DNA from: Rufibacter sp. LB8
GTDB taxonomy: Bacteria > Bacteroidota > Bacteroidia > Cytophagales > Hymenobacteraceae
Direction: 5' to 3'
Length of the DNA: 64,000 bases
Assembly (NCBI RefSeq): GCF_014876185.1
Contig: NZ_JADALJ010000001.1
Coordinates: forward strand, 3,453,501 to 3,517,500
How positions within the stretch are numbered: position 1 is the stretch's first letter; the number at the start of each line of letters is the position of its first letter. Below the pieces are notes generated by a model. That model was not told the origin of the DNA. It saw only the letters and a program-made list of their open reading frames with translations, and made no database searches. The position numbers were made by a program, and so were the translations under genes. This document shows, piece after piece, positions 452 to 15,673 of this stretch.

Positions 452-1579
452 TTATTCACTCAGGAGGGGTATTTTCTTCGCGCTTATAATCGGGTCTTTG
501 AATATTTTCTTTACCGTGCGGGGGCTAATGGTTTGCTCTCTGTAAGGGATGTCTTGCCAAGTTTTGGATACCTGCACTACCACCATCTTGAGGCTCACAT
601 CTATACCTTCCCTGAAATTGTCATTGAAGAGATGGACTGAAAAGGCACCCTGCCTCACTTTTTCATTCCTGCCTGAGGCAGACACCACATTGCCTTGGTC
701 AATCACCACCTCTTGCCTGTCCCTGAGCCCTGAGAATTTGAAGTGAACATTATCACCCATGGAGGGTGGGGTAAACAAGGAGATGCCGGTAACCGCCAGT
801 GACGCCAGCGCCCCGTACCCGGTCAAGGAGCCTACCGCCTGCAAGCCAGAGCGTAATAGACGGTTAGCCTTTTCATATTCTTCGGTTGATTTCTGCCCCA
901 CTCCCAGCCAATAGGACCACGCCACCACTTCTGTTGTCTGGTAGGGGTTCACCTGGTTGGGGGCATAGGAATTTCTGGGTAGTTCTACTGTTGCGTAAGT
1001 ATGCTGGGTTTTCCCTGCCGCCGTTTCTGAGTGCACCCGTAAGATTTTGTCAAAAAGTGGTTTTGCTACGGTGTCTACTTTCACCAGTTCCTTTCTCACC
1101 TTCTGTGTGTATAGGGTATCATAGCCTATTACCACGTCTTTGGTATAAGAATGCCAGGTGGTGTCTTGCTTTGTGACCCAGGTTACCGCGGAATTGAAAT
1201 TTCTGGCCGCGTCATTTTTGGGTATTCTCTGGATTTTGATCTTGCACACCCTGGCCGCCATGGCCGTGTTCTTGAACCGGAAGACATATACCCCGGTCTT
1301 GCCCACGGTGATGGACTTGTTCTCAATCTGCTTTGATTTATAGTCGCTAAATTTGGAGTTGCTGGGGTACTCCGCTATTTCAATTTCCTTGAGTTCTTTG
1401 CCGCCCAACTCTTTATAATTGAAAATGATTTTGTCACCTTCAGAAAACCCGTAGAAGAGCTGTTCTTCTGCAAAACCACCAACTTTTATAGTCTGCTCAG
1501 ACACGTCTACTGGTTCTTGTGCATATACAACCATTGTGCAGGTTAATAGAAAGAAAAGAAGGCTGAACTTTGTAGACAT
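452..1579 (-). CDS. Secreted protein of unknown function
   Basis: This encodes 375 aa, starting at ATG 1577-1579. Residues 1-20 form a clear Sec signal peptide (hydrophobic core, cleavage near VYA-QEP). The mature protein is beta-rich in its first 100 residues, has a middle part with KDVVIGYDTLYTQKV, a short hydrophobic/glycine-rich helix (about 245-275, SLTGYGALASLAVTGISLF) and a further beta-rich segment. No catalytic motif is recognised and no T9SS tail is visible. It may be periplasmic or outer-membrane associated, with the hydrophobic stretch inserted. It stands alone, with a 97-bp gap to the P-loop gene upstream. The gene looks real from its signal peptide and codon use; the function is unknown. 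Confidence 0.75.
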   Translation of the reverse strand: MSTKFSLLFFLLTCTMVVYAQEPVDVSEQTIKVGGFAEEQLFYGFSEGDKIIFNYKELGGKELKEIEIAEYPSNSKFSDYKSKQIENKSITVGKTGVYVFRFKNTAMAARVCKIKIQRIPKNDAARNFNSAVTWVTKQDTTWHSYTKDVVIGYDTLYTQKVRKELVKVDTVAKPLFDKILRVHSETAAGKTQHTYATVELPRNSYAPNQVNPYQTTEVVAWSYWLGVGQKSTEEYEKANRLLRSGLQAVGSLTGYGALASLAVTGISLFTPPSMGDNVHFKFSGLRDRQEVVIDQGNVVSASGRNEKVRQGAFSVHLFNDNFREGIDVSLKMVVVQVSKTWQDIPYREQTISPRTVKKIFKDPIISAKKIPLLSE

Positions 1580-1676
1580 AAATTGGTGTAGGGTAAATTT
1601 CTTTAACCTCTTTTAAGTAATCTGTGGTTGCTGTTCAGAGGTCTGTATCTGGTATGTTTGGTGTTCTATTAGTACC

Positions 1677-2153
1677 CTATCTATAGACACAGTCTAATGT
1701 GGCTTTCACTACCTGTTCCACTACGGGTTTTTTAATGTCATGCTTCCGTTCATTTTTGTCACTGAATTTAGTGAAGACCTCCAAGGTAATTCTATGGGTT
1801 TTTGAAAAATCATCTAACAGCATTCTGTAGGTAGAGCCCCGTCTGTTCACGCTGCGCGCGCAGCATATAATCACCTCCACCTGAATGTTAATTAGTATGG
1901 TAATTTGCTCTTTTGTCTGCCATGCAACATCGCCTGCGCTCACAATACCTACTTTCTTGCCATTGATGGTCAGAATGGAGGTAAAGTCCCATATCTCTCC
2001 CTTGCTGCTGTACTTCAGGCTGTCTTTTGTGACCGTTTTGCTATTGAAGATGTGCTCCTTTTCTGCTACTTGTACTAGCTCATGGTAAACGAGCCCGGTA
2101 GTGGTGGTCTTGCCGCTGTTCTGGCCTCCTCTGATGATGATGAAATCTGCCAT
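1677..2153 (-). CDS. Small P-loop NTPase-like protein
   Basis: A 158-aa cytoplasmic protein starting at ATG 2151-2153. The Walker A motif is GGQNSGKTTT at residues 9-18, directly after the first beta strand (FIIIR), so the P-loop sits at the very N-terminus as in small kinase-like folds. A hydrophobic strand VGIVSAGD (about 67-74) could be the Walker B or sensor strand, and VEVIICCARS (about 92-101) another core strand. It resembles a decayed gene at about 22431-22900, which has GGAPSVGKSGT followed by similar strand blocks, so the two seem to be distant members of one family. Substrate and pathway are unknown. It could be a nucleotide-sensing partner of a mobile or defence system, but nothing nearby proves this. 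Confidence 0.7.
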   Translation of the reverse strand: MADFIIIRGGQNSGKTTTTGLVYHELVQVAEKEHIFNSKTVTKDSLKYSSKGEIWDFTSILTINGKKVGIVSAGDVAWQTKEQITILINIQVEVIICCARSVNRRGSTYRMLLDDFSKTHRITLEVFTKFSDKNERKHDIKKPVVEQVVKATLDCVYR

Positions 2154-2311
2154 TATCTGTCTGTTTTTAATTCAATGATTCAGCGAACCCGCCTAAATAG
2201 GTGGCTGGCCTGCGTGCTTGCCTAGGGTAATAAATTGGGTTTTGGAAGAGTGCTGTGTGATGGTTCCTGCTGTTGAGTTACCTCCTTATTCATCGCCAAA
2301 AATAGGTTTCG

Positions 2312-2349
2312 CGTTTTTGGCCTCATTTCCAGAAACAAGGCCAAAAACG
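2312..2349. repeat. Dispersed palindrome, copy 2
   Basis: Inverted repeat with perfect 11-bp arms CGTTTTTGGCC and GGCCAAAAACG around a TCATTTCCAGAAACAA centre. It ends one base before the stop codon of the 2351-2620 gene, so it may also work as its terminator. It belongs to the same family as copies near 401, 56764, 57018 and 60121. Confidence 0.75.
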
Positions 2350-2350
2350 G

Positions 2351-2620
2351 TTAGTAGCATTTCTTGCAGGGCCTTCTATCATGCCTGCTTTCGGCGTCTG
2401 CCTTGGTGACCGCTGAGATGGTGTGGCTGCACCGGTTGAGCCCGCTGCAGGAGGAAGAGCTGTGGAAGGCATAGGCGCTGCCACCCTTACAGATGTAAAC
2501 CTTGACGGCTTTGGCAGCAGCGGTCTTGGTAGTGGGTTGCTTGGCTGGTGCCTGGTTAGTCTGGGCGTAGCCGTACACGGTGAGCAGAGCCAGCAACAGG
2601 GTGAGCAGGTGCTTTTTCAT
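2351..2620 (-). CDS. Small secreted Cys/His-rich protein
   Basis: An 89-aa protein. I chose the ATG at 2618-2620 because the sequence from MKKHLLTLLLALLTVYGYA is a textbook signal peptide; an in-frame ATG 15 codons upstream would bury it. After a Thr/Ala/Lys-rich linker comes VYICKGGSAYAFHSSSSCSGLNRCSH, and the protein ends DRRPCKKCY. The spacing of Cys and His (C, H, C, C, H, then C-x2-C) suggests a small metal-binding or disulfide-stabilised domain exported to the periplasm. Proteins with this YxYHSSSSCSGL-type pattern are common, uncharacterised products in Bacteroidota. The dispersed palindrome follows the stop directly. Confidence 0.7.
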   Translation of the reverse strand: MKKHLLTLLLALLTVYGYAQTNQAPAKQPTTKTAAAKAVKVYICKGGSAYAFHSSSSCSGLNRCSHTISAVTKADAESRHDRRPCKKCY

Positions 2621-2779
2621 TTGTCTGAGTTTGGTGTCTAGGTACAATACTGCAGTAGGGCTCATCTGGCTTTTTAAGAAAGAGAGGATTTACTGCAGTG
2701 CCATGCATGGTAGGGGGAGGACGTACAGGCAGCTTTCAAAGATAGGGCAATTGGGACTGGAGCTAGCTTTGGGGCTTCA

Positions 2780-2812
2780 GTGATTTTTCACTTTTAAATT
2801 GTGGAAAATCAC
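2780..2812. promoter_or_regulatory. GTGA-N4-TCAC motif plus near-copy
   Basis: An exact GTGATTTTTCAC at 2780-2791 is followed 9 bp later by the near-match GTGGAAAATCAC (2801-2812). They lie about 160 bp upstream of the small secreted gene (start 2620). The same 12-mer recurs in other intergenic regions of the window. The half-site GTGA/TCAC with a 4-bp spacer resembles a CRP/FNR-family operator; the binding protein is unknown. Confidence 0.45.
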
Positions 2813-2872
2813 ATTTTTAGGTTAGGTTAAAACGTTTTTGGGATTACAGTGGGCGGAGGTCCATTTACAAAG

Positions 2873-2907
2873 ACAAAGGACTTCAATGATTCATTAAAGT
2901 CCTTTGT
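2873..2907 (-). terminator. Hairpin downstream of the subtilase operon
   Basis: Perfect 11-bp arms ACAAAGGACTT and AAGTCCTTTGT with a 13-nt loop, about 175 bp past the stop of the 3083-3316 gene on the minus strand. It fits a transcription terminator for the two-gene subtilase operon, although the following T-run is weak. Confidence 0.5.
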
Positions 2908-3082
2908 TAGAATGAAATTATAGAAGTCCAATAATCAATAAATTCAAATCTTCAAATGTTTGCTTATCGTAAGATTATCTTTTGCAACGGTTGATATAAA
3001 TACTTTAATTCTATGCTTATGATGCTTAGCGTTTTCCATTTTCTACGCATCATACGTTTGCAAAGAGGGTACTACCTTTGAG

Positions 3083-3316
3083 TTATTGTATTTCTGAATC
3101 TGGGGGAGAAATTTGAATTGATTGATCTTCCTTTAAAGAAAGAATCTCATCATAACTTCGGAGCTTTTCTATTGATTTATCCTCCACGTTACCTGTGATC
3201 ACCCCATACTCAAATATATTGGTTATTTGCAGGCCGTCCTGCTTTAATGTGCTTGCAATTATGTGCAAACGATCCAAACAATCTTCTGTGATGGTGATGA
3301 CAATGTTCTTGCGCAT
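3083..3316 (-). CDS. Small I9-propeptide-like partner of the subtilase
   Basis: A 77-aa protein starting at ATG 3314-3316, only 10 bp after the stop of the S8 peptidase gene, so the two are surely co-transcribed. The sequence alternates strand-helix-strand (KNIVITITED, a helix RLHIIASTLKQDG, then ITNIFEYGVITGNV, a helix KSIEKLRSYDEI, and LSLKEDQSIQI). This is the ferredoxin-like order of subtilisin propeptides and stand-alone I9 inhibitors, including the terminal xLxEDQ strand. No signal peptide is present. I infer that it binds the peptidase as an intramolecular-chaperone-like inhibitor supplied in trans; this is a fold-level inference, not a proven relation. Confidence 0.75.
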   Translation of the reverse strand: MRKNIVITITEDCLDRLHIIASTLKQDGLQITNIFEYGVITGNVEDKSIEKLRSYDEILSLKEDQSIQISPPDSEIQ

Positions 3317-3326
3317 GGTTCCTGGC

Positions 3327-4592
3327 TTATGGAGCCGTAGCCAAACCGGCCCCTACATCTTGGATGGATAACAACGGCAATTTCTGTGCAATAGTTTGCA
3401 AAGTAGAGATAATCTGACTAGGTGTAGCATGCGGATACTGCTCCCTCAAAAGGGCAATAATACCTGCTACGTGCGGAGTGGCCATACTAGTCCCAGAGAT
3501 GGTTCTATATCTGGCTGGCAAAGGCCAGGAAGAATAAACTTGTACCCCTGGAGCGGCAATATCTATTAAAGCCATCGGGTTTATGGCTCTGTTGGAGAAG
3601 TCAGCAATATTCAACCCAGAGTCAAGTGCTGCGATCGCTAAGACAGAGGGACAGTCTGCTGGACTTGATACGGGGTCATAATGATTCCAGGAACGTCTAC
3701 TGTCATTTCCCGCCGCCGCTATTACTACGGAACCTTTAGCCATAGCACTTTTGGAAGCTCTTTCATAAGCAATATCATGGCTCTGTCCCGGAAAGGTTCT
3801 TGAGCCTAAAGACATGGAAATGACATGGCATCCATTGTTGGCAGCCCATTCCATGCCAGCCAGAATCCAGGCCTGGGCACCACTGCCCTGATTGCTTAGG
3901 ACTTTGCCAACGTAGATAGAGGCTTCTTTTGCAACCCCATAGCGTTGGCCTGTCCTGTCCAAGTTGCCGCATGCCGTTCCAACGCAATGTGTGCCATGGC
4001 CGTGTTGGTCTTGTGCCGTCTCGTTGGGAACAAATGAGCTTGAGACTATATTTCTATTTGTAAAATCTGGATGGTGAAGGTCAAAACCTGTATCTAAAAC
4101 TGCTACTTTAATATCTTTCCCTGTAAACTGAGAATTTGCGGCACGTGTAGCCTGCAATCCCCAAGTGGTTGGGATATTAAGGCTGGCGGGAATAGATTCT
4201 GGGATGTATACCACCTTTTCAGGCACTACAATGTATTCTAAAGAAGTATCAGATTCTAGGAGCTGTACTTGGTCTTCTTCTCCCCCAACCAATGCAACAC
4301 CTAAATCCTCGAATATTAATGCATCAGCACCTTCAATTTGGCTTTCATCAAATGCCTGTAGGTCGAAATCTTTTGTGTTAGCTACTTGAATCCCCATCCT
4401 TGATTCAAAAAGGCGCTCTACTCTGGAAAAATCCCTGTTTCCATCCTTCAAAATTACAAAGTACCTTCCTGTATAAAGCGGGGAGGTGTCTTGAGGATGG
4501 TTGTAAACTTCATTTACAAATTTTTCAAATGACCTGAGCCGTTGATTGTTTTCGGCAAGAAAGGTGCGGGACCCAAGTATCGGCTTTTTCAT
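3327..4592 (-). CDS. S8 family serine peptidase (subtilase)
   Basis: A 421-aa protein starting at ATG 4590-4592. The catalytic triad is visible: Asp167 in VAVLDTGFD, His199 in HGHGTH, and Ser369 in SGTSMATPH, with oxyanion Asn296 in AAAGND. The catalytic domain therefore spans about residues 145-421. The first ~140 residues (FVILKDGNRDFSRVERLF...) could be a divergent propeptide or a separate N-terminal domain. No signal peptide is seen, so it may act inside the cell or leave by an unusual route. The downstream I9-like small gene probably controls it. Similar subtilase/small-protein pairs occur in Bacteroidota. The substrate is unknown. Confidence 0.93.
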   Translation of the reverse strand: MKKPILGSRTFLAENNQRLRSFEKFVNEVYNHPQDTSPLYTGRYFVILKDGNRDFSRVERLFESRMGIQVANTKDFDLQAFDESQIEGADALIFEDLGVALVGGEEDQVQLLESDTSLEYIVVPEKVVYIPESIPASLNIPTTWGLQATRAANSQFTGKDIKVAVLDTGFDLHHPDFTNRNIVSSSFVPNETAQDQHGHGTHCVGTACGNLDRTGQRYGVAKEASIYVGKVLSNQGSGAQAWILAGMEWAANNGCHVISMSLGSRTFPGQSHDIAYERASKSAMAKGSVVIAAAGNDSRRSWNHYDPVSSPADCPSVLAIAALDSGLNIADFSNRAINPMALIDIAAPGVQVYSSWPLPARYRTISGTSMATPHVAGIIALLREQYPHATPSQIISTLQTIAQKLPLLSIQDVGAGLATAP

Positions 4593-5158
4593 GGCTGGAA
4601 GTTGAGGTTGTTAAATATCCATATATGAATACTAATTTAAATTTAACCAGGAGTTGATGAGAGTATTTATCATGGGATTATTCACAAGTTAATACAGGTA
4701 TTTTCACCTTCTTGATTTTTATTAGCGCCATTCTACGGGAATGAAGCTTTCATCATAAGATATATGTTTAAGGAATAGTTGTCTTTATAAAAAGTAATCA
4801 AAGTGTATGCCCTCCTGATGATAAGTGCTATTTATAACTTCTAATATCTTTGATTACTATGAAAGTTGGCAGTAATCGTGTAGCCTAAAGGACCAACAAA
4901 AGCCCTAACATCTTGAAAGGATTAATGCGATGCTGAAATCAGTTATAAGTTCGGTAAGAGAGAATTGGGACGATAACAAATAGTATATACCAGTGAAAGT
5001 GAACAATGGGACCAAGGCGCATATTTGGTTGTTGAAGAGACTACAGAGCCATATCTGCGTTTCATTGTATAAGTATAACGGAGGTGCTTCCCTAAAACAG
5101 GAAACATATGGGGTGTACAATGGATTTAGGGGAGTTTTATTGAACTACTTCACTCAAT
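4593..5158. other. AT-rich intergenic stretch, no supported gene
   Basis: About 565 bp between the subtilase and the recombinase. It is AT-rich with frequent stops in all frames. One 71-codon minus-strand frame (4905-5120) has no recognisable protein character, so I do not call it. The promoter of the subtilase operon should lie just upstream of 4592. Confidence 0.5.
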
Positions 5159-5761
5159 TCATTGACCAATAGCCTGCTCCTTCACAAAAGAGGACACTGT
5201 CAATCTATGGACCCCTAATATTCTGCCTATAGCGCTGAAGGATATCTTTTTGCTGAGTAGTTGCTGTATTTCCTCTTCTTTTCCAGTGAGTTTCTTGGTC
5301 TGAGATTTACTGCCTTTTGGGCGTCCTAATATTTTTCCTTCTGCTTTGCGGCGTGCCAAGGCTTCTTTGGTTCGTTGAGAGATGAGGTTACGTTCAATTT
5401 CGGCAGATAGCCCAAAAGCAAAGGCTAATACTTTAGAGTTGATGTTGTTGCCCAACTCATAATTTTCTTTGACGGTGTATACCATAATGTCTTTCTCCAT
5501 GCAGTCATGGAGGATTTTCATGATTTGCATTAAGTTCCGGCCCAGGCGTGAAAGTTCTGAAACTACCAAAACATCACCTTTCTTCATCTTAAATAGGAGT
5601 GCGCCGAATTTTCGCACCTCTAGTTTTTTGGTAGAGCTGATGGTTTCTTCAATCCATTCATCTATAGTAAACTCCCGTTTTTGGGTGAATTTCTTGATTT
5701 CGAAGAGCTGGTTTTCTGTGGTTTGCTTGTCAGTGCTGATCCGGATGTAGCCGTAGTTCAT
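5159..5761 (-). CDS. Serine recombinase (resolvase/invertase family)
   Basis: A 200-aa protein starting at ATG 5759-5761. The catalytic domain is at residues 1-140: the nucleophile is Ser9 in GYIRIST, and the active-site loop SELSRLGRN spans about 68-76. The long E helix (AFGLSAEIERNLISQRTKEAL) follows. The C-terminus (about 155-195, ISFSAIGRILGVHRLTVSSFVK) is a helix-turn-helix DNA-binding domain. The length is that of Din/Hin-type invertases and Tn3 resolvases. It starts only 119 bp from the 270-bp repeat flanking the invertible specificity cassettes, so it is the obvious candidate for driving their inversion. It could instead be a resolvase left from a mobile element; no paired crossover site has been located. 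Confidence 0.92.
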   Translation of the reverse strand: MNYGYIRISTDKQTTENQLFEIKKFTQKREFTIDEWIEETISSTKKLEVRKFGALLFKMKKGDVLVVSELSRLGRNLMQIMKILHDCMEKDIMVYTVKENYELGNNINSKVLAFAFGLSAEIERNLISQRTKEALARRKAEGKILGRPKGSKSQTKKLTGKEEEIQQLLSKKISFSAIGRILGVHRLTVSSFVKEQAIGQ

Positions 5762-5880
5762 GGTATTGGTTAAAATTGTTTAACGCAAGAAATGAACTAG
5801 GATTGGAAACGTCAATGATTGCCTGTATAAGTTAAAGACTGCTCAAATAATTTTTCCGACAAATAAGAAGGTAGAATTTG

Positions 5881-6150
5881 GAGCGATTACGTTAGTCAGA
5901 ACAAGGCGCTGGCCACCAACTTTTCTGGCGAAAGTGGTTGGGTTATTCTGAGTGAGATTGAGACCCGCATTAAGCAAAAAGTTGAAGCTATCGGCACGCC
6001 GCTAAAGGAATGGGACATTCAAATCAATTATGGAATCAAAACTGGTTTCAATGAAGCTTTCATTATTGACGGTCAAAAACGCGCTGAATTACTAGAGAAA
6101 TGCCCTAAAGCTGATGAAATTATTCGTCCGATTTTACGTGGCAGGGATAT
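5881..6150. repeat. Left arm of a perfect 270-bp inverted repeat
   Basis: These 270 bp are identical, in reverse complement, to 7463-7732 inside the type IIG gene; I compared every base. Identity starts at GAGCGATTAC and stops at GGCAGGGATAT, after which the copies diverge to weak protein-level similarity. In the main gene the repeat encodes residues ~976-1066. The segment between the arms (6151-7462) is the predicted invertible part. Confidence 0.97.
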
Positions 6151-6184
6151 CAAGAAGTATAAAGCTGAGTTTGCAGATCAATGG

Positions 6185-6796
6185 ATGATATTTATCCCAT
6201 GGCATTTTCCTTTACAAAATGACATTTCCGTAAAAGGTTCTTCTAATGAAGCTGAAAAGGCTTTTAGAGATTCTTATCCGGATATTTATAACCACTTAAT
6301 TCAATTTAAAGAACCTCTATCTAAAAGGAACCCAGCTGAGACAGGCAAGCGATATGAGTGGTATGCTTTACAAAGATTCGGATCTAATTATTGGCCAGAT
6401 TTTAATAAAGAAAAAATAGTATGGATAGAGCTAACTAATTCTCCAAAATTCGCAATCGATACTAATGGTTACTACCTTAACAACACAATTTTCTTTATGA
6501 CTGGCAATCACTTAAAGTATTTACTTTCATATTTAAATTCGCGCTTATGTGAATGGCATTTTGATAAAATTGCAGCAACTTCTGGAGCTGGTACAAGAAG
6601 ATGGATAAAGATTTATATAGATCAAATATGTGCACCCAAACCGGATTTGAAAAACGAGAGTGATATTAATGATTTAATTGATAATGCGATTAAAAACCAA
6701 AGCAATGAGAATTTAGAAAAGATAGATGCTTATTTTTACAAAGTCTTTAACTTAGATGTATTAGAGATTGAAACAATAATAAGTGCAGAACTTTAA
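6185..6796 (+). CDS. Silent alternative specificity (TRD) cassette of the type IIG enzyme
   Basis: The open frame actually runs from 5881 to 6796; the ATG at 6185 is only the first in-frame Met. There is no upstream methyltransferase portion or start signal, so this is a promoterless 3' cassette. Its product aligns with the C-terminus of the 1288-aa enzyme: both have FIPWHFPLQ, an RNPxETGxRYEWYALQRFGSNY block and a central LNSx motif typical of TaqI-like C-terminal specificity domains. The distal parts differ (this copy ends DVLEIETIISAEL). Its TAA stop (6794-6796) overlaps the opposite-strand stop of the active gene within one TTAA. After inversion the main gene would read GRDIKKYKAEFADQW and continue in frame to give a predicted 1280-aa enzyme. 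It could also be expressed alone as a stump, but that seems unlikely. Confidence 0.85.
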   Translation: MIFIPWHFPLQNDISVKGSSNEAEKAFRDSYPDIYNHLIQFKEPLSKRNPAETGKRYEWYALQRFGSNYWPDFNKEKIVWIELTNSPKFAIDTNGYYLNNTIFFMTGNHLKYLLSYLNSRLCEWHFDKIAATSGAGTRRWIKIYIDQICAPKPDLKNESDINDLIDNAIKNQSNENLEKIDAYFYKVFNLDVLEIETIISAEL

Positions 6797-9700
6797 TTCT
6801 TGTCTATCAATTGTTTAAAACTTTCTATGCTTCTTTCATCCTTTGTTAAGTCATACAAATTAAATATTATCTCATCAAGTTCTATTTCTTCATTTGAAGA
6901 GTCTAAGCCAGACTCTTTCCGTTTTAGAACCTCATGTACTTTCTCTGAAATTAGTTCTTGTATTTCTTTAGATGGTTTAGGAATTGGTAGTTGTTCAACA
7001 TACATTGGCTTATATTCAAAATAACCGCCATTTCTAGTTACTCCAAGTTGTTTAATATAAAAATCTGCGATTTTAGAATTTAATATACCGAGAAGATAAA
7101 GGTTATCAGTTGCTATAAAAGGAGCAGGTGCATTAATTACAAAATGCTCTTTTGTAAATGAAAATTGAGGTTTAGTCGCGAGGTTCCCCCAAGTTATTTT
7201 TGGTTTAGTAAATTCTTTATAATAATTTGAGCCGAACCTTTGTAACGCGTACCATTCATATCTTATGCCTGTTTCTGTTGGGTTCCTATTTAATAAGGCA
7301 TCTTTGAATTGTGAGAGATATTGATAAATTTCAGGATAAGATTCTTTAAATGCTTGCTCTGCTACGCTAGAAGCTCCTCTAATTGAAGGATCTCCTTGCA
7401 AGGGAAAATGCCAAGGAATAAATAGTATCCAGGAGTCAACAGGCTCAATTAAATATCTTTTAATATCCCTGCCACGTAAAATCGGACGAATAATTTCATC
7501 AGCTTTAGGGCATTTCTCTAGTAATTCAGCGCGTTTTTGACCGTCAATAATGAAAGCTTCATTGAAACCAGTTTTGATTCCATAATTGATTTGAATGTCC
7601 CATTCCTTTAGCGGCGTGCCGATAGCTTCAACTTTTTGCTTAATGCGGGTCTCAATCTCACTCAGAATAACCCAACCACTTTCGCCAGAAAAGTTGGTGG
7701 CCAGCGCCTTGTTCTGACTAACGTAATCGCTCATTTTTTCTAGACTGCCTAGGGTTTTATCTAGCAGGCATGTCTGGGTTTGGCCAAGATATGGGGATTT
7801 TTGGGCTATAAGTAAGTTGGTGTCTACGGTGGCAGACTCAAACACTTGGTATCCCCCAAAGTCCACCAGAAGCAGCGGGTTGGTCTTCTCCAAGAAGAAC
7901 TTCCTGATTGCCTGCCCGTAATTGGCGCGCATCCACTTGTTGGAGGTGATAAACCCAAAGAAATAATCTTTCTTGAGCAGCCGGATGGCCTGCTCGTAAA
8001 ACAGGCAATAGATGTCACCGGTCCTTACGAACGTGTCATACTTCATTTTCTGGAGCGCGTCAGCGTCCGATCCCATTTTCTGAAGTTGTATATACGGTGG
8101 GTTGCCCAGAACTACCTCAAAGCCCTCAAAGTCTCCCTTGGAATTAAGTACCTCCGGAAACTCAAAGCGCCACTCAAAGGCGTTTCTATAGATGATATTA
8201 CTTTCAGCAGTATGGATTTCCATCTCCTGCTTCTCAATGTTGAGGGTGATCCGGCGCACCTCCAACTCCATGTCTTTCTCAGATCGCTTTTTCCCGAACA
8301 GATCAATGTTATTGTGGGCAAGGGCCAGCTGCCCGCGTTGATCCGCCAGTTTCTTGCGCCGTGGGTCTCGCCGGCTCACTGTCTCATGGAACTGCTTCTT
8401 AATTTTCTGAATGAACGCCTGTAACTCATTCTTCGCGCTCTTGCTATGTGCCTCCTTGTAGTCGTGCACTGCCTTTTGGTATTCCTGTGGTCCGAAGTCC
8501 TGCTTTTTGAAAACTTCAGATAGGTCTTCTTGAAGGGAGTATTTGCTCAGCAGGGAGTTCCCATGCTTGATGTTGATGTCAATGTTGGGCAGCGTCTCCA
8601 GTTCTCTATACTCTGTCTCTGTCTTGTAATAGGCATGCTTCAGAAGCTCTATCCACAGTCTCAATTGGCATATTTTAACTGAGTTGGGGTTGATGTCCAC
8701 TCCAAATAGGCAATTCTCAATAATTTTCCGCTTTTCATTGAACAGGGTCTGCTGAATACGCTGTACCGGCTGTGGGATCACATGGGTGCCTCCGGGTCCC
8801 TCTTTCACAGAGTATTCAAAGAAATTCCCGGAGTGGGCGTAGGTGATGACCAATTCATCTTGGGCAATCCCCACCTCTATCTCCGCGAGCCGGTTTCCGT
8901 TTGCGTCGGCTAGGATGCCTAGCTCCCCTTTTATGGCGATAAGTTCATTCAGACTGGAAACCAAGAAATGACCTGAGCCAACCGCTGGGTCTACTATTTT
9001 AACACTGTCTACTAGTTTATTGTCTGCCAGAACCTCTTCCGTTTTACGGCGGTCAGACAAGTAATTTTTGACATCGGCAATGGTGGAGCAGTTCCAGGTG
9101 TATTTGTCGTTGAATTTCTTCACCACCGCCTTCCTGATGGTTTCCTGGCAGAGGAACATGGTCACGGCACCTGGGGTGTAGATGGAGCCGTCACGGTAGC
9201 CGTTTATCTTCTCAAACACCAGGCCCAACACTGCGGCATTAATGATAGTCTTGTTTTCCTCCTGTACTTCCTCTTTCCCTACCGAGGCAAAGTCATAAGC
9301 CTCCAGGAACTGGAAAAAATAGTGCAGCGTATTTTGGGTTTGGCTTAATTCCCTTTGGTGTACCCGCTTGCGGAGAATGGAAGTGGCGTATATCTCCATG
9401 TCCATGTTTCCGTCCAAGCCATTGATTTTAATTGTGGCCTCCTCCAACGGGGAGATTTCAAACAGGGAACTGTTCAGGTAAGGGATATGGCCAAACTTCT
9501 GTTGTATGAGTGTTGACCGCTGTTCATTCTGGCGTGCCAGCACCTGGAAGAAAAGCTTGTATAACTCATCATAATCACTGATGGTTTGTGAGTTTAGAAA
9601 CCTGTATTTTTTGTCTTCTTGGTGGTATTTGATCAGCTGGGCCTCCAGCAGTTTCAGGAAAAGGATTCTGTTAACCCACGTAATGCACAGTTCCAGGCTT

Positions 9701-10659
9701 AGATGGAACAATTGTTCTTCCCTGGTCTTTCCGTACATTTGTGCGTGCGGAATGCGTGCTAGGGTGTTCTCCACCTCCAGGATATTGATGGTGTTCTCAA
9801 TCATGGAGCCGGGCTGCCGTTCCCGCTCCGGCATCCTGTCAATGAATTTTCTCCCCCCTTTTTCTCTGATTTCCTTTAAGCCTATGATATGGAGCAACTC
9901 AGAGAAAAAGCCTTTGTCTAAGGAGTTGCTGTCGTTCAGGAAGGAGAGTTTGAGTAAATGGACCGGTGTGAAGAACTTGAACAGGGGGATTAGTTTGTTG
10001 TCATCCTTGTCCTTGGTGCTGTCAAGTTGTTTCTTGAACGTGCGTATGTCAAAATACGTGAAGGTGATGGTTTCCTTAAGTTGATCGATAAAGGGCTTTG
10101 CTATCTCCTTGTAAAACAGGTCTGTCTTGTTGCTTACTTTCTGGCCGCTTGCCCAATCTTTGTAGGCTGTCTGGAGTTGCTTGCTCTCTCTGAAAACCCG
10201 TTCAAACAGCTGTGCGTCAAATACAAACCATTCATACACATTTGTAATGACCAGATGCGTAAGTGAGTTATTGTTGTTATTCAGACGTTCCCGCAGAAAG
10301 TAAAGGATCAGCTCATGCATTGCTTTTGCGTTGAGGTTATCCTTTGTGATCATATCCGCCTTATTGGTGGGTTTCTTCACCTCGAAAAGCACTCCGGCGG
10401 GGGCTTTGGAATCCTTGCCCAAATGAATGACAAAGTCTGTGAGCTCTTTGGTGTTGATGAGGTAGTCTGTTTGATAGAAAGTATCGCGCAGGAATGTCAT
10501 CAAATGGTTTTTCACATTCTCTTCTCTTTCCTTTTCATCTATATGGCTTAGCAGGGTTTTGAGATTAGCTTTGAAAGTGTTGAGATCCTGTCGTTTGGGT
10601 TTAATTAAGCGATAGGCTTTGTTCAGGCTGTCTTTCAGCTCAGTGTGGGTTATTACCAT
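6793..10659 (-). CDS. Type IIG restriction-modification enzyme (Eco57I-like fused nuclease-methyltransferase)
   Basis: A 1288-aa protein starting at ATG 10657-10659. N-terminal domain (about 1-200): a PD-(D/E)XK-type nuclease core with Asp75 in LTDFVIHL and Glu93-x-Lys95 in LFEVKKP. A helical linker runs to about 480. The N6-adenine methyltransferase domain spans about 490-870: motif I is DPAVGSGHFL beginning at Asp557, a second SAM-region motif is LFGVDINPNSVKICQLRLW, and the catalytic motif NPPY is at 853-856. The C-terminal part (about 930-1288) is a TaqI-like target-recognition domain. One polypeptide thus cuts and methylates the same site. Residues ~976-1066 are encoded by the 270-bp repeat, so the last 222 residues can be exchanged with the inverted cassette. 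No BREX or other R-M subunit genes are nearby. Family confidence is high; the recognition sequence is unknown. Confidence 0.95.
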   Translation of the reverse strand: MVITHTELKDSLNKAYRLIKPKRQDLNTFKANLKTLLSHIDEKEREENVKNHLMTFLRDTFYQTDYLINTKELTDFVIHLGKDSKAPAGVLFEVKKPTNKADMITKDNLNAKAMHELILYFLRERLNNNNNSLTHLVITNVYEWFVFDAQLFERVFRESKQLQTAYKDWASGQKVSNKTDLFYKEIAKPFIDQLKETITFTYFDIRTFKKQLDSTKDKDDNKLIPLFKFFTPVHLLKLSFLNDSNSLDKGFFSELLHIIGLKEIREKGGRKFIDRMPERERQPGSMIENTINILEVENTLARIPHAQMYGKTREEQLFHLSLELCITWVNRILFLKLLEAQLIKYHQEDKKYRFLNSQTISDYDELYKLFFQVLARQNEQRSTLIQQKFGHIPYLNSSLFEISPLEEATIKINGLDGNMDMEIYATSILRKRVHQRELSQTQNTLHYFFQFLEAYDFASVGKEEVQEENKTIINAAVLGLVFEKINGYRDGSIYTPGAVTMFLCQETIRKAVVKKFNDKYTWNCSTIADVKNYLSDRRKTEEVLADNKLVDSVKIVDPAVGSGHFLVSSLNELIAIKGELGILADANGNRLAEIEVGIAQDELVITYAHSGNFFEYSVKEGPGGTHVIPQPVQRIQQTLFNEKRKIIENCLFGVDINPNSVKICQLRLWIELLKHAYYKTETEYRELETLPNIDINIKHGNSLLSKYSLQEDLSEVFKKQDFGPQEYQKAVHDYKEAHSKSAKNELQAFIQKIKKQFHETVSRRDPRRKKLADQRGQLALAHNNIDLFGKKRSEKDMELEVRRITLNIEKQEMEIHTAESNIIYRNAFEWRFEFPEVLNSKGDFEGFEVVLGNPPYIQLQKMGSDADALQKMKYDTFVRTGDIYCLFYEQAIRLLKKDYFFGFITSNKWMRANYGQAIRKFFLEKTNPLLLVDFGGYQVFESATVDTNLLIAQKSPYLGQTQTCLLDKTLGSLEKMSDYVSQNKALATNFSGESGWVILSEIETRIKQKVEAIGTPLKEWDIQINYGIKTGFNEAFIIDGQKRAELLEKCPKADEIIRPILRGRDIKRYLIEPVDSWILFIPWHFPLQGDPSIRGASSVAEQAFKESYPEIYQYLSQFKDALLNRNPTETGIRYEWYALQRFGSNYYKEFTKPKITWGNLATKPQFSFTKEHFVINAPAPFIATDNLYLLGILNSKIADFYIKQLGVTRNGGYFEYKPMYVEQLPIPKPSKEIQELISEKVHEVLKRKESGLDSSNEEIELDEIIFNLYDLTKDERSIESFKQLIDKN
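7463..7732. repeat. Right arm of the perfect 270-bp inverted repeat
   Basis: Reverse-complement twin of 5881-6150, lying inside the active type IIG gene and encoding its residues ~976-1066. The last repeat base falls in the second position of codon 1066, and the cassette continues in the same phase, so recombination anywhere in the arm preserves the frame. Confidence 0.97.
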
Positions 10660-11090
10660 GTTGCGGAGAAGCGTAGAATCCAGTGACTAGCAAGATACAA
10701 AAAGTAGCGCGGATATGCATTCTCACAGGATGGGAGCAATAGAACAGCAGGGCAAGTAGTTACCCAAAAGGAACAGTTATAAGCAACAAGAAACATATAG
10801 AAGTATCTAGTTTATCCCTTGTTTGAATGGTGACAGTTTTTAAAAAATTGCTAAGTTCTAAGGGAAGTGAATGATGCCTTAAGCCATTATCAAAGATAGA
10901 AGGAAATACAGACCTCTCCCTTGCTCGCGGTCTGTGAAGTTTCACATAATGATATGTAATTTTTAGAAAAAGTTAGGCTAGAACATTTTATAACTCAGCT
11001 ACAAGTGGGTTTTTGAAAGCAAAAGAAAGGGTAGCGGTTATTGTGACCAATATGTGAGGAAGGAAATACTTGCTGGCATTGTCAAAGGGC
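10660..11090. other. Intergenic, no supported gene
   Basis: About 430 bp of AT-rich sequence upstream of the type IIG gene, where its promoter should lie. A 61-codon minus frame at 10760-10945 shows no protein-like character and is left out. Confidence 0.5.
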
Positions 11091-11447
11091 TTATGTATTT
11101 TGGAAAAGTAGATTTTTAAAACTGGAAGATTCCTGGTCCAAATCCATTCTGAATTTCACATTCACCAAGAACCCCTTCGCGCCACCAGATTCTAGCCGGT
11201 ATTTACCTTCCATCCCAAGCAAGCCTTCTATTTTCTCAACCCCGAATGGTTTGACAGCACCAATACCTAACGCCGTAATCTTAATAATAAGAGATTTGAT
11301 TTCTATGTCTTTTTTATCATACATCCGAGCACCAAAAAAATTCTTTATCAAATGGTTGTTTGAGTTGTCCTCAGAGCTTATCTCTTCCCTGAGAAAAGAT
11401 TCCACTTCCTTTTGTAAACCTTGCCCATTTAAAATCTTTAAATCCAT
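11091..11447 (-). CDS. Hypothetical cytoplasmic protein
   Basis: 118 aa from the ATG at 11445-11447 (MDLKILNGQGLQKEVESFL). A TTG seven codons upstream is less likely. The N-terminal ~60 residues are helical and charged (SFLREEISSEDNSNNHLIKNFF); the C-terminal half has beta-like stretches (KSLIIKITALGIGAV, KYRLESGGAKGFLVNVKFRMDL). There is no signal peptide or membrane segment. It stands alone, 180 bp from the next gene. I do not recognise the family. Confidence 0.55.
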   Translation of the reverse strand: MDLKILNGQGLQKEVESFLREEISSEDNSNNHLIKNFFGARMYDKKDIEIKSLIIKITALGIGAVKPFGVEKIEGLLGMEGKYRLESGGAKGFLVNVKFRMDLDQESSSFKNLLFQNT

Positions 11448-11627
11448 CTTGTAAATTGTAGAAGGCAACCTTTAAATCCATTAGTCACTTATAAACCAAA
11501 GTTTGTTTGGAAGCCCCTCAGTGACAAAAGCAGGGTAAATGATTCGTATTTGCTCAATTCCATAAATCCAGCAAAGTAAGCCTCTCAGAAAATCTGGCAA
11601 TGATGACTAAATAATCCCAATTTCACA

Positions 11628-12338
11628 TCATTTTGTAGCCATTGCCGCCAGCCTGTCAAAGTTCTCCATTTTCTCGCGTGCACTGATGATCCATTCAGTT
11701 ACCAGCTCCACATATTCTGAAAATTGCAGCTCTTCAAATACTAAACCTCTCTCTGAACAAAGAAGTGGAGCCTGGGCAAAAAAGAGTGTTAAACGTTCAA
11801 AGAGTATACTAGGACTAGGGATAAGCTTTCTTTCAACTGGAGGCGCCCGGTGCAATATCCAGTCCCGTACACATTTGATGGCTTCTTTGGGACTGTTGAA
11901 GTGAATACTTGGGTCTTCCCCGCCTAAATCTGTGATGTGTTCCTTATAGCGGTGAGGGACACTGTCTAAAACAAGGTATTCCTTTTCATAGTCATAGGCC
12001 GTGCCGAACTCCCGGCACCCAATAAAGACGCCAAGCTCCAGTGGCATGTTGTTCCGGGGCATAACGTTGGCCTCAAGGCTTATTCTAGACAGATCATGTA
12101 TGCCATAGCGGCATTCCCCTATAATATCCAGAATTCTTGAAAATCTGATGTTCTGTGAACTACCCTCCAAGGCACACCGGGCTATAAAGCCACAGTCATG
12201 AAGGGTGAAAACGATAGCGTGGAAAAGTGGTTTGAATTCATCATCAAAAGGACAATTGATGAACACATTGAAATCATAATCCCCATGTTTTTCACGCTTC
12301 CTGCGGGAGGACCTTTTAGTTTTTATTCCACTAGCCAT
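11628..12338 (-). CDS. TIR/nucleoside-deoxyribosyltransferase-like protein
   Basis: A 236-aa protein starting at ATG 12336-12338. After a basic N-terminus (KTKRSSRRKREKHG) come the blocks VFINCPFDDEFKPLF, HAIVFTLHDCGF, ILDIIGECRYGIHDLSRI and NMPLELGVFIG. This series is typical of a widespread uncharacterised family whose strand order and the E-L-G segment recall the nucleotide-cleaving fold shared by TIR domains and nucleoside 2-deoxyribosyltransferases. The C-terminal ~70 residues are helical. It follows a small lysine-rich gene by 4-6 bp, so they form an operon. Given the nearby restriction and PIN/ASCH genes, a nucleotide-degrading defence role is plausible, but that is inference. Confidence 0.65.
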   Translation of the reverse strand: MASGIKTKRSSRRKREKHGDYDFNVFINCPFDDEFKPLFHAIVFTLHDCGFIARCALEGSSQNIRFSRILDIIGECRYGIHDLSRISLEANVMPRNNMPLELGVFIGCREFGTAYDYEKEYLVLDSVPHRYKEHITDLGGEDPSIHFNSPKEAIKCVRDWILHRAPPVERKLIPSPSILFERLTLFFAQAPLLCSERGLVFEELQFSEYVELVTEWIISAREKMENFDRLAAMATK

Positions 12339-12344
12339 GATGAC

Positions 12345-12623
12345 CTACTTTTTGCGCTTTGGGGTTGCCTTTTTTGCGGACGGTGCCCCTTTAGGTTTCT
12401 TGGCTGCTGCTTTATTTTTAGCATTAACAGCTGTCTTGGGAGCGGTTTTGCTTTTACGCACCGGTGGGCCACCAAACTGCTGTTGGTACTCCTCTCTCAA
12501 CGTGCCGAGCTTCTTGTCACTTCTTGCATCTGAACCATCTGGATTCCTGATGGCTCCCTTGTCAAGCCCCAGTTTCTTCTCAAGGTTTCCAATGGTTATG
12601 TCTGATCTTATCTTGCGGGGCAT
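12345..12623 (-). CDS. Small lysine/alanine-rich protein, partner of the TIR-like gene
   Basis: A 92-aa protein starting at ATG 12621-12623. Residues 1-50 (RKIRSDITIGNLEKKLGLDKGAIRN, then ARSDKKLGTLREEYQQQFG) look folded and could be a small DNA- or protein-binding helical unit. Residues 55-92 are an Ala/Lys/Pro-rich tail (KTAPKTAVNAKNKAAAKKPKG...), like the basic tails of histone-H1-like bacterial proteins, and may bind nucleic acid. The stop lies 6 bp before the start of the TIR-like gene, so the pair is translated from one message. It may regulate or target the downstream protein; the family is not known to me. Confidence 0.65.
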   Translation of the reverse strand: MPRKIRSDITIGNLEKKLGLDKGAIRNPDGSDARSDKKLGTLREEYQQQFGGPPVRKSKTAPKTAVNAKNKAAAKKPKGAPSAKKATPKRKK

Positions 12624-12759
12624 TGTAACAGGCTTTTAGGACACAGTTTAAGAAGTAAGAGATTTTCTCTCAGACCATCAAAGATTAATTAACACTTATT
12701 CTTTTGGTTATGTTGTTCAACTCTAAACTTAGTGAAATAAGCTTTTTTACACCTTTTAT

Positions 12760-13143
12760 TCACCCTAGGTCATGCAAATAAAGAAAGGACTGCGGTGCAA
12801 AATGGATATTGAAGTCATCTTTCAGGCATTTTGGCTGCTTGTATTTCTTTACGCATTTAATCTCAATGGCATTGGCCTCATGTTTGCCTTCAAAGTATGT
12901 ATCAAAGAAGCATTTTGAGATACCTGAATGTTTTTTGGTCCTTTGCCATAGTTCTTCCTTGTCCCCTTTTAAAATTGTTTTGATTTCAAATTCACCAATC
13001 ACCTTTTGAACAGGTGAGGAGGCGTAAACGATAATGGTAGTGATGGAGGTGTTTTTAAAAAGAGTCTTCCGATACTCATACCGTTTTTCGCCTTCAAAAA
13101 TCTTATCTGCATATTCAGGTTTAATCGATAATAATACTTTCAT
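12760..13143 (-). CDS. ASCH-domain protein (PUA-like fold)
   Basis: A 127-aa protein starting at ATG 13141-13143. The opening MKVLLSIKPEYADKIFEGEKRYEYRK is the ASCH signature (SIKPxYxxxIxxGxKxxExRK), and VIVYASSPVQKVIGEFEI gives the following strands. ASCH domains are PUA-related and bind or process RNA; some are small ribonucleases or amidohydrolases. It overlaps the 3' end of the PIN-GNAT-EVE-like gene by 23 bp, so the two are translationally coupled. The two probably act together on RNA. Confidence in the domain is high, in the role low. Confidence 0.88.
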   Translation of the reverse strand: MKVLLSIKPEYADKIFEGEKRYEYRKTLFKNTSITTIIVYASSPVQKVIGEFEIKTILKGDKEELWQRTKKHSGISKCFFDTYFEGKHEANAIEIKCVKKYKQPKCLKDDFNIHFAPQSFLYLHDLG

Positions 13144-14644
13144 TACTTTCAGAGGCTTTTAATATGTGGTCAACCTTCTCCCAAGAAATTTGGGTGAAAG
13201 TGCGCGGTGCATCATCAACGCCCCCAAGCACACCTAAATCAATGAGCCTTGCCATGTTCGGCCTCTTTGGAAATGAGTAGGTATAGAGGAAGTTGACAAC
13301 AAACGGCCTGTTTTTGGGGTTTCGGTCCCAATATGCCATAAGTTCTGTTTCTGTAAGAACAGTCCTTTTTCGACAAATTTTAATTAAATCCGCCGCACTT
13401 GCAACTGGGGCTAGCACTTCCTCCACAATTGCGATTGTGGTCACCACACTTTTATGATATCCCCCGGTCCTATAAAAAATGATGACATCTCCTTTTTTGA
13501 AGTTCCTGATATAGGAATGGGAAATGTATGACTTGCTTAATGCATTTCTATGTGGCTCATTTTCAACAAAGTCTTGTCTTGATTCATTGTTTAGAATAGA
13601 GTCTGGGAAAAGTTCTGTATGGTATTCTGGGTAAATTGGAACAATGTAAGCTTTCCCTCTTCTTGAAATATAAGGGAAAGAAAATTTTGGATTGCTATGG
13701 TCTACGTGTGGCCGGAAATTGCGGACGTAAACGTTTTCTTCCTCCACTGTTTCTGCTGTCTTCGTTTTCTTAACACCCCATAATACAAACCCCCACTCAG
13801 ATAGGAGGTCTATCAACCTTTGCTGCTCCGGACGTTTTGGGAAAATAGTGACATAGATTTCATCTACTCCCCTTGAGAGAGCATTGTCAAAAATTATCTT
13901 AAGAAAACGTTCCCCCAGTTTAAAACCTGTTAAGGTCACTTTAAATGTGCCAATTTTCAGTCTTTTTTTAGGGGGTAGCGGAGGAGTCATATCAGAGTAA
14001 GGCTCATTTGTCCCTTCAGTCTTTAAGAAAAGGAATGCGCAAATTTTGCCGTCAGCATAACATACATAGGCTATCTCGTCTGCTTTTCTATTAAACCAAC
14101 CATCAAAGTTGTCATAGTCGCTTCTGAAAGAATCAAAGAATTCATCTTGCAATTCTATATGTCCAAAGAGCTCTTTTTTAACAGCCAGCACCTTATAGTC
14201 TGTCAGCTCAGGATGTTCTGCCAAACACTTTTCAATAAACTTCTCAATCTTGAAAACACGGTCTGAGATCCCTAATTCACTCGCTTTAAGATGTATTCTT
14301 TTGTCTTCAGAAATAAGTATATCTACCCTGCCCGTAAATACCTCATTAAGAATCTGGGAATCATTGATATCATTAGGCGTGTGGTCCAGCTTTTTAGAGA
14401 CCTTTGTCACCTCTGCATGGATTGGAGCAAGTGCTTTAATGAGGTGATAGCTGCTCAGTTTGATGGCAAAAGATTTTTTCACTTTTTCTTCCCCATGTCT
14501 ATTGATTTCTTCTACTGAAATGGGATGAATAACCTTCTGGAGGCGGAGTTTATCCAGCCAGCTGAATAATTGGCCTATATCTTCATTTCTTACAACGGCG
14601 GCCTCTCTATGGATAAGAATATTTGTGTCTAATAGTGCTTTCAT
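13121..14644 (-). CDS. Three-domain protein: PIN ribonuclease, GNAT-like, EVE/PUA-like
   Basis: A 507-aa protein starting at ATG 14642-14644. The N-terminus MKALLDTNILIHRE is the first PIN motif (Asp6); later acidic residues in NDINDSQILNEVF and DILISEDKRIH (about 110-135) complete a PIN metal site. Residues ~165-310 look like a GNAT acetyltransferase (AYVCYADGKICAFLFLK, then KIGTFKVTLTGFKLGERFLKI and DEIYVTIFPK). Residues ~325-500 have FKKGDVIIFYRTGGYHKSVVTTIAIVEEV, which resembles EVE/PUA-like modified-base readers. The downstream ASCH gene overlaps it. A nuclease, a possible acetyltransferase and a base reader in one chain suggest an RNA-targeting toxin or defence effector. The domain calls are by motif; the third is the least sure. 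Confidence 0.8.
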   Translation of the reverse strand: MKALLDTNILIHREAAVVRNEDIGQLFSWLDKLRLQKVIHPISVEEINRHGEEKVKKSFAIKLSSYHLIKALAPIHAEVTKVSKKLDHTPNDINDSQILNEVFTGRVDILISEDKRIHLKASELGISDRVFKIEKFIEKCLAEHPELTDYKVLAVKKELFGHIELQDEFFDSFRSDYDNFDGWFNRKADEIAYVCYADGKICAFLFLKTEGTNEPYSDMTPPLPPKKRLKIGTFKVTLTGFKLGERFLKIIFDNALSRGVDEIYVTIFPKRPEQQRLIDLLSEWGFVLWGVKKTKTAETVEEENVYVRNFRPHVDHSNPKFSFPYISRRGKAYIVPIYPEYHTELFPDSILNNESRQDFVENEPHRNALSKSYISHSYIRNFKKGDVIIFYRTGGYHKSVVTTIAIVEEVLAPVASAADLIKICRKRTVLTETELMAYWDRNPKNRPFVVNFLYTYSFPKRPNMARLIDLGVLGGVDDAPRTFTQISWEKVDHILKASESNESIIID

Positions 14645-14710
14645 AGCATTTCTGTAAATCCTGCCTAATAACTTTTTAAGGGAATAATAAAGACCTAAGC
14701 TTTCAACTTT

Positions 14711-14878
14711 CTATTTATTTGTTTCCAGCCATTCAAAGTACTCTCTTAAATACACCGTTAGAACTTCGGTGTATCTTCCCACGATATATTCTTTTATGAT
14801 TTGCCCTGGCTCCCCATTCCTATTCCACCAGGAAATTAAGAATACCACCCTGTCCTTAAAGGCATATGGCTTCGGCAT
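14711..14878 (-). CDS. Possible small protein (55 aa)
   Basis: A short frame with ATG at 14876-14878 and stop at 14711-14713. The product (MPKPYAFKDRVVFLISWWN ... YLREYFEWLETNK) has a balanced composition with aromatic-rich helices, unlike random frames nearby. An AAAAGG lies just before the ATG. It could be a genuine small protein or the tail of a lost gene. No family is recognised. Confidence 0.35.
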   Translation of the reverse strand: MPKPYAFKDRVVFLISWWNRNGEPGQIIKEYIVGRYTEVLTVYLREYFEWLETNK

Positions 14879-15130
14879 GGCCTTTTTATTACACTGCTCA
14901 GGAATATGTGTATATAAGTTTGCCTTCTTAACATTTCTGACAATCGCCAGGTCTTAAGCTTTCCATACGTTATTATTCTTTGCACTGCAGGAAGTGATAA
15001 AATGCTGTTTGTCTTTGTAAGTAGAACCAGAAGGGTTGCTTTAAGTGGTTGGAATAGTTGGGTAATGGGAATACAAGGTGAATTCCTTTTCCATTTTGCC
15101 CGTAGTTTCACTTTTGTAAGGGAAAGCTGA

Positions 15131-15673
15131 TTAAACCAATTTCGCCTTTGCCAGCTCCAACAGGGCCAGCACCTGCACCAGCTCCTCCGGGCTCATGAAC
15201 ACCATGGAGTTGGAGTCAAACTTTGACAGTTTCAGGTAGGCGGACCACTTTTTTTTGTCCTGGCTGTAATAGCAACCTGCCTCAAACCCTCCTCTGCTAG
15301 TAAAGGAGACCTCTGTGTAATTGGCCGGGGAGCTGGGCAGCAGGCTGGACTGGATCAACTTGATCGATTTGATGAGGCCTTCGAGTTCATCCGCATCCAC
15401 AGAGCCTATCTTTGTGCCTGCGGAGTAACCGCTGCCCGTCACGGCGGCGAACCTGACCGCGCTTGTCTTGGCGGCATGGATAAGATCTTTCAGAACGATT
15501 ACCTGCACCTCCACGCCCTTGACCTTCCCGACGTCCAGGAACTCTTTCTCGATCAGGGTCCCAGACTTAGCTGAAAATAGATCCGCCTTGCTTTGGTCAG
15601 TTTTCTTCTCCTGGGCATAAATACCGGAAAGGGTGAAAATGCATACTACAGCGATCAGTAAAAGTTTTTTCAT
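15131..15673 (-). CDS. Secreted protein of unknown function
   Basis: 180 aa from the ATG at 15671-15673, chosen because MKKLLLIAVVCIFTLSGIYAQEKK is a clean signal peptide; an upstream ATG adds 21 residues without character. The mature part has alternating strands and helices (GVEVQVIVLKDLI, TAVRFAAVTGSGYSAGTKIGSVDADELEGLIKSIKLI, TEVSFTSRGGFEAGCYYSQDKKKWSAYLKL) and ends with a helix (EELVQVLALLELAKAKL). This pattern is common among small Bacteroidota exported proteins with no known function. There is no T9SS tail or lipobox. It is monocistronic, with a GTGATTTTTCAC motif about 270 bp upstream. Confidence 0.75.
   Translation of the reverse strand: MKKLLLIAVVCIFTLSGIYAQEKKTDQSKADLFSAKSGTLIEKEFLDVGKVKGVEVQVIVLKDLIHAAKTSAVRFAAVTGSGYSAGTKIGSVDADELEGLIKSIKLIQSSLLPSSPANYTEVSFTSRGGFEAGCYYSQDKKKWSAYLKLSKFDSNSMVFMSPEELVQVLALLELAKAKLV

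Follow-up and report, generated by a model that had tools for sequence, protein, structure and literature searches.

Among the described systems closest to the locus analysed here, the inverting type I hsdS loci include SpnIII of S. pneumoniae and the four-way switch of Streptococcus suis, with repeats located before and between the TRDs (PMC7394358), and the title of another report terms PsrA a tyrosine recombinase (PMC7096588). Mpi of Bacteroides fragilis is described as a global promoter invertase of 13 regions (Coyne 2003, as cited in a passage of PMC4747536), and a phase-variable type IIG enzyme is mentioned for Campylobacter jejuni NCTC11168 (Anjum 2016, as cited in a passage of PMC5903667). 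In Helicobacter pylori, TRD movement (DoMo) proceeds by homologous recombination between loci, alleles or positions, chiefly in type I and type III systems (PMC3983042), while the relevant excerpt of the pan-plasmidome paper credits a 15.36-kb Lactococcus plasmid (CP016750, there pJM1D) with a complete Type II system and applies the term ‘shufflon’ to type I systems only (PMC6458302). For type I hsdS loci, changes of restriction or methylation specificity driven by inversion are already on record. We found no literature report of an inversion-switched type IIG enzyme, an absence that is weak evidence because most subscription journals lay outside the search. The compact type IIG form, which the first-pass annotation of the present locus set apart from the known type I inversion systems, is not a one-off: it belongs to a multi-phylum family, described below.

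The locus lies in the window, i.e. the whole 64,000-nucleotide stretch of Rufibacter sp. LB8 DNA that was analysed, and consists of the following elements:

5159-5761, minus strand: serine recombinase of 200 aa, Mpi (master DNA invertase) family; Gin invertase structures matched.
5881-6150, plus strand: left arm of the inverted repeat, heading the silent cassette.
6151-6796, plus strand: silent alternative recognition-domain end, startless and intact to its stop; TaqI_C at E 1.5e-13.
6793-10659, minus strand: active type IIG restriction-methylation gene of 1288 aa, with a DUF7149-DUF7814 N-terminus, an Eco57I methylase and a TaqI_C specificity domain.
6793-7462, minus strand: active variable end, the final ~221 recognition-domain residues and stop; TaqI_C at residues 1059-1226.
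7463-7732, minus strand: right arm of the inverted repeat, within the active type IIG gene.

The two arms form a 270-bp inverted repeat of exact reverse complements (0 mismatches), for which a chance origin is ruled out, and weaker homology extends beyond them to about 6418/7195 (538 nt, 85%). The silent copy on the plus strand has an open frame of ~309 aa with its stop at 6794-6796, and the left arm offers no start codon for it; the frame runs tail-to-tail with the active gene, its end at 6796 overlapping the active stop. When 6151-7462 was inverted in silico, the frame was kept and an ORF of 1280 instead of 1288 aa resulted, which has 1067 residues in common with the 1288-aa form and then continues KYKAEFADQW. 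The recombinase gene is separated from the left arm by ~120 bp. On all these points, namely the perfect repeat around the type IIG end and its startless opposite-strand copy, the in-frame outcome with its two product lengths, and the adjoining recombinase, the first-pass annotation was exact.

Pfam recognised DUF7149, DUF7814, the Eco57I methylase (Eco57I/MmeI_Mtase) and TaqI_C in the 1288-aa enzyme, and the PADLOC REase_MTase_IIG model matched residues 4-1276 (E 5e-261). Three motifs mark the constant part:

10375-10437, minus strand: PD-(D/E)XK-like motif D75...E93-V-K95 in the constant N-terminus, putatively a nuclease motif.
8965-8991, minus strand: methylase motif I, DPAVGSGHF, residues 557-565, in the Pfam Eco57I/MmeI_Mtase domain.
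8092-8103, minus strand: methylase catalytic motif NPPY, residues 853-856, kept in 116/116 aligned relatives.

Methylase and recognition domain reside on one chain with N6-adenine motifs (DPxxGSGxF, NPPY), as in type IIG enzymes, whereas a type I system has its S subunit apart, beside HsdM and HsdR; the ORFs of window 1-16000 include neither an S subunit nor another methylase. The locus does not qualify as BREX either, with a BREX methylase score of 110.7 against a cut-off of 500 bits and no PglZ, BrxB or BrxC neighbours recognised in the ORF list of window 1-16000. The swapped end matched M.BseCI by profile, and an AlphaFold model (pLDDT 79.5, pTM 0.70) used for a fold search of the PDB matched CamA and M.BseCI with E about 1e-12 to 1e-9 and TM-scores of 0.45-0.5, and MmeI and BpuSI more weakly. 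In the predicted model the fold match to the target-recognition region is clear, with domains that are not rigidly superposed, and profile and fold together mark the exchanged end as the recognition region of the enzyme.

An enzyme that serves as a methylase alone, hardly restricting DNA if at all and thereby acting as an epigenetic switch, would be consistent with several observations: the predicted nuclease activity is read from the N-terminal D...EXK motif and from no other feature, the methylase parts resemble BREX PglX, and in most cassette relatives (about 43) the partner of the methylase is a PLD-SNF2 helicase, not an N-terminal nuclease. However, D75, E93 and K95 are invariant in 49/49 relatives with the same N-terminus and PADLOC types the full length as a type IIG REase-MTase, and we regard methylation without restriction as unlikely. 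The N-terminal motif suggests that the 1288-aa enzyme would also cut DNA.

The recombinase scored 325.6 bits against NCBIfam NF009949 (Mpi family; cut-off 272), a cut-off exceeded by 6/6 tested recombinases, and no close paralogue of it was found in the host genome. Weak palindromes in the arms were tried as the recombination site and yielded no convincing dyad; the site came from comparison of loci (labelled L below). The outer site of the family, ~20 bp with the consensus TGAGCGWTTTTGTTNRGCAR, encodes S-D/V-F/Y-V-x-Q and bounds the outer edge of both arms even in loci with otherwise diverged arms: identity in many loci is limited to 19-27 nt at this edge, the remainder of the arm having diverged, and in the window locus, L034 and L054 the repeat starts at the same codons despite distantly related enzymes. 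The outer site was matched (at most 4 mismatches of 19 positions) in 145/161 cassette copies in paired loci versus 9/48 copies in unpaired loci, with most of these 9 on contigs ending nearby, and random stretches of the same loci typically showed 6-7 mismatches. A second run of identity (at least 15 nt) between active and silent copies was present in 37/73 loci, mostly as a ~24-nt block, GGASGATTTTTMTAARCMRAAAAT, at the border of two recognition modules, in the same frame as the outer site and similar to it in shape. With two site pairs per locus, up to four enzymes are predicted. The corresponding sequences in the window are:

5881-5902, plus strand: predicted left recombination site, forming the outermost part of its arm; recognised through the family consensus.
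7711-7732, minus strand: predicted right recombination site, GAGCGATTACGTTAGTCAGAAC, likewise outermost in its arm; recognised through the family consensus.
6394-6420, plus strand: degenerate inner site of the silent copy, with 5 mismatches to the family inner consensus and differing from the active copy.
7193-7219, minus strand: degenerate inner site of the active copy, between modules 1 and 2, with 7 mismatches.

The window-locus site departs from the family consensus at 2 positions and occurs in the 4.75-Mb host genome (up to 3 mismatches allowed) in the two arms only. Only the outer pair is intact, and two states are predicted here because the inner block is degenerate. The locus thus combines paired inverted repeats, a conserved recombinase site and a linked recombinase, as inverting loci do, and crossover most likely takes place at the outer ~20-bp site, in 5881-5902 / 7711-7732. 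The segment 6151-7462 proposed at first pass gives the right sequence outcome, which does not depend on an inner or outer crossover because the arms are identical, but its boundaries at the inner edges of the arms are probably not where strands are exchanged.

Relatives were sought with the enzyme and its C-terminal end, and then with a profile of such ends against GTDB genomes and viral contigs. Four loci (L034, L035, L054 and L055) are likewise tail-to-tail, with perfect inverted repeats of 134, 284, 256 and 212+67 bp, respectively. In each of them a serine recombinase of ~200 aa, sharing 65-81% identity with that of the window, lies just outside the silent arm. Altogether, opposite-strand cassette pairs were found in 78 loci, and an Mpi-family serine invertase lies next to the repeat in 76/78 of these, compared with 0/33 relatives that have enough flank and no silent cassette (p about 3e-26 in a Fisher test without correction for kinship). 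In 72/76 loci the invertase is on the silent side, and its median distance to the site is 62 bp. Judged by record titles, most hosts belong to the Bacteroidota; the others include Treponema, Streptococcus, Lachnospiraceae, Ruminococcus and Chloroflexi (among them the isolate Longilinea arvoryzae), along with one MAG each of Akkermansia, Azovibrio and an archaeon. Such MAG assignments may conceal contamination. Two architectures recur: solo enzymes with a DUF7149 N-terminus (the window locus and 18 others) and a methylase beside a PLD-SNF2 helicase (about 43 loci). In the sampled Bacteroidota the switch is uncommon, being present in 3/204 genomes of the family and 3/395 of the class, the host genome counting in both. 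One active and one silent copy, both intact, are present in 63 loci, and homologous modules were found in the same versus the opposite state 526 versus 566 times for module 1 (at least 70% identity) and 136 versus 128 times for module 2 (at least 60% identity); judged from these sequences, such equal active and silent frequencies are as expected of cassettes that would change places freely and be selected in both states. Phage records gave distant matches only, and the 7 stretches returned by a site-pattern scan of viral contigs were unrelated, with neither a IIG tail nor an invertase.

Some loci depart from this arrangement. Inverted repeats in L037, L042, L052, L053, L069, L070 and L073 were rejected as unrelated because the IIG tails there are not paired on opposite strands. 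L037 (G000:C1:1668604-1671963) is a second IIG gene of the host genome, 60% identical in its N-terminal half and different at its end; no silent copy or invertase was found beside it, and it counts as a fixed relative. The Lactococcus plasmid loci L159 and L160 are near-identical to a switch locus and have the gene without silent copy or invertase, and we set them aside as locked derivatives. In L035 (genome G067) an IS4/IS5-type transposase gene at 9910-10698 sits in the silent cassette and truncates the alternative end, while L096 and L105 carry additional IIG tail pieces on the silent strand, perhaps forming more than two cassettes.

The host shows a single orientation, with no inverted form or further copy of the locus in the whole genome (4.75 Mb, 2 contigs). 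Recombined states occur in Lactococcus and Bacteroides relatives. On the Lactococcus plasmids pJM1F (L161) and pUCCL629A (L162), helicase and methylase are collinear (93%), and the active module 1 of L161 equals the silent module 1 of L162 (99.2% over 496 nt), with a switch in identity at the site; the reciprocal pair, silent in L161 and active in L162, is 85% identical. The module 2 segments all differ, and the two plasmids are therefore not a clean single inversion of one ancestor. The Bacteroides locus L154 and its counterpart L155/L164 (B. finegoldii NZ_OY725960) carry the same gene (99.0% over 5271 nt). The active end of L155 is composed of the silent module 1 of L154 in its first part (99.4%, 541 nt, from outer to inner site) and of the active-strand module 2 of L154 in its second (100%, 146 nt). 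This arrangement belongs to the predicted set of four, and its two joints coincide with the sites. Since the active copy of L154 is frameshifted and L155/L164 end early, we read this case as recombination and not as a functional pair. In the genus of the window host, L034 has the window's silent module-2 type in the active position and the window's active type in the silent one (silent type 74%). L164 itself is a 15.5-kb circular B. finegoldii element (NZ_OY725960) with two integrases; at the circle junction near base 1 the element ends inside the enzyme's recognition module, as if its attachment site were located in or beside the cassette.

These comparisons bear on three further readings of the silent cassettes. 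They might mainly supply sequence for gene conversion or for the horizontal exchange of modules, programmed inversion at the window locus being rare or dead, as could be argued from the module 2 differences between otherwise near-identical Lactococcus loci, from the homologous modules that distant loci have in common and from the degenerate inner site in the window; plain gene conversion, however, needs no dedicated invertase, no paired inverted sites and no exchange exactly at sites, and we hold this reading to be quite improbable. Inversion might instead proceed by RecA-dependent homologous recombination across the 270-bp arms, with the serine recombinase as a bystander. The arms are fully identical over 270, 284, 256 and 134 bp in the window locus, L035, L054 and L034, long enough for such exchange and beyond what a serine invertase needs, whereas in many loci identity at the outer edge is confined to 19-27 nt, the invertase tracks the cassette (76/78 versus 0/33) and the exchange boundaries fall on the two short sites. 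A bystander invertase is thus very improbable, and the excess of identity in the 270-bp arms suggests additional homologous exchange or gene conversion. Finally, a static partial duplication whose silent copy is a decaying, never-expressed remnant, the refutation envisaged at first pass, would explain the single orientation in the host genome, but merits next to no credence in view of a silent copy that reads through to its stop in the frame of the gene, 63 loci with both copies intact and homologous modules equally often active and silent, recombined states in other hosts, and arms that have been kept identical.

Taken together, the parallel loci, the conserved site, the dedicated invertase and the recombined states in two other hosts strongly support the invertible type IIG specificity switch first proposed for this locus, and we consider it very likely that the locus is a self-contained in-frame specificity switch run by the Mpi-family serine invertase. 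In the mechanism that we propose, the invertase (5159-5761) would recombine two ~20-bp sites in inverted orientation, one within the type IIG coding sequence (7711-7732) and the other heading a promoterless, startless alternative cassette (5881-5902). Inversion of 5881-7732 would preserve the frame and swap the last ~220 residues, turning the 1288-aa protein into one of 1280 aa and leaving its constant nuclease and methylase domains unmoved. Because nuclease and methylase share the exchanged recognition domain, both would be redirected to the new target at once. Where relatives have retained the inner site, two modules of the recognition domain would be exchanged to give up to four enzymes, and the window locus, with its inner site lost, would be a two-state switch. 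While the repeats, the frame, the site, the association with an invertase and the recombined states in two other hosts can be read from the sequences, we infer from them that the window invertase is active and that inversion takes place at this locus; a flip would then be expected to alter the methylation and cutting motif and may serve phage defence or epigenetic variation. The first-pass expectation that mismatch would cause no self-cutting holds insofar as nuclease and methylase remain matched to one another, but the genome would be unmethylated at the new motif right after inversion, so that some protection must be assumed; a slow nuclease, methylase-first kinetics and a two-site requirement are candidate safeguards.

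The surroundings look like mobile-element and defence-island DNA. Near the invertible enzyme, a two-gene module without Pfam hits (window 11628-12338 and 12345-12623, both minus strand) encodes two proteins, one of 92 aa with ‘MPRKxRSDIxIGNLEKKLG’ and one of ~236 aa with ‘YNVFINCPFDD’, and the same module is found in another genus (G320) near the invertible enzyme of L055 (3287-4087 and 4002-4448, both minus strand). A PIN-domain protein (window 13121-14644, minus strand) is a full-length match to the PADLOC candidate defence family PDC-M11A (E 2e-216), and an ASCH-domain gene (12760-13143, minus strand) overlaps its gene. Farther away, a gene at 26716-30456 (minus strand) for a SIR2-domain protein of 1246 aa, which matches Dsr2 and ThsA in part, is likely a further defence gene, and relaxase and coupling-protein genes and an AbiEii-type toxin gene are located at 38734-42019 and 62896-63951 (both minus strand).

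More broadly, the loci probably represent a widespread class, undescribed in the literature searched, in which an Mpi-type serine invertase and one or two in-frame ~20-24-bp coding sites would allow Eco57I/type IIG methylases with two half-recognition-domain cassettes to form two or four enzymes, the nuclease (or partner helicase-nuclease) and the methylase being retargeted together, in Bacteroidota, Bacillota, Spirochaetota, Chloroflexota and others. If such switches are common in type IIG/Eco57I-type enzymes, many genomes would harbour concealed phase-variable states of defence and methylation, displayed by standard annotation as a single fixed enzyme accompanied by a ‘TaqI-like C-terminal’ fragment; such states would help to account for methylation motifs without a matching gene and for mixed phage sensitivity in clonal cultures. 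Survival of the cell at the moment when its still unmethylated genome faces a freshly altered cutting specificity poses a puzzle. The in-frame sites between modules mark where nature recombines the recognition modules of such enzymes.

Compared with known systems, the predicted switch resembles B. fragilis Mpi in having a recombinase of the same NCBIfam family (NF009949) but differs from it as a local enzyme with two coding sites only, which alters a protein and not a promoter. With the C. jejuni NCTC11168 enzyme it would have in common the phase variation of a type IIG enzyme; that enzyme reportedly goes on and off through a homopolymer tract, its recognition domain unchanged by inversion. 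Phase variation of pglX with recombinases is said to be described in a BREX paper. Recognition-domain sequences also move by recombination in H. pylori DoMo, where methylation motifs change, but there without a silent inverted cassette and a dedicated invertase. MmeI, BpuSI, M.BseCI and CamA are alike in the fold of the recognition region, with a relation in sequence to M.BseCI, and none of them is known to be invertible. There is also a likeness to the inverting type I hsdS loci, in which recognition halves are likewise exchanged between an expressed and a silent copy at inverted repeats, with up to four specificities and a locus-encoded recombinase. Yet in hsdS loci a separate S subunit is switched, and the characterised loci have a recombinase of the tyrosine integrase type, whereas here it is a single-chain type IIG enzyme with in-frame coding sites of ~20 bp and an Mpi-family serine invertase. 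The window switch works like the hsdS switch, yet it is neither a type I nor a BREX system but one of another enzyme class with a serine recombinase.
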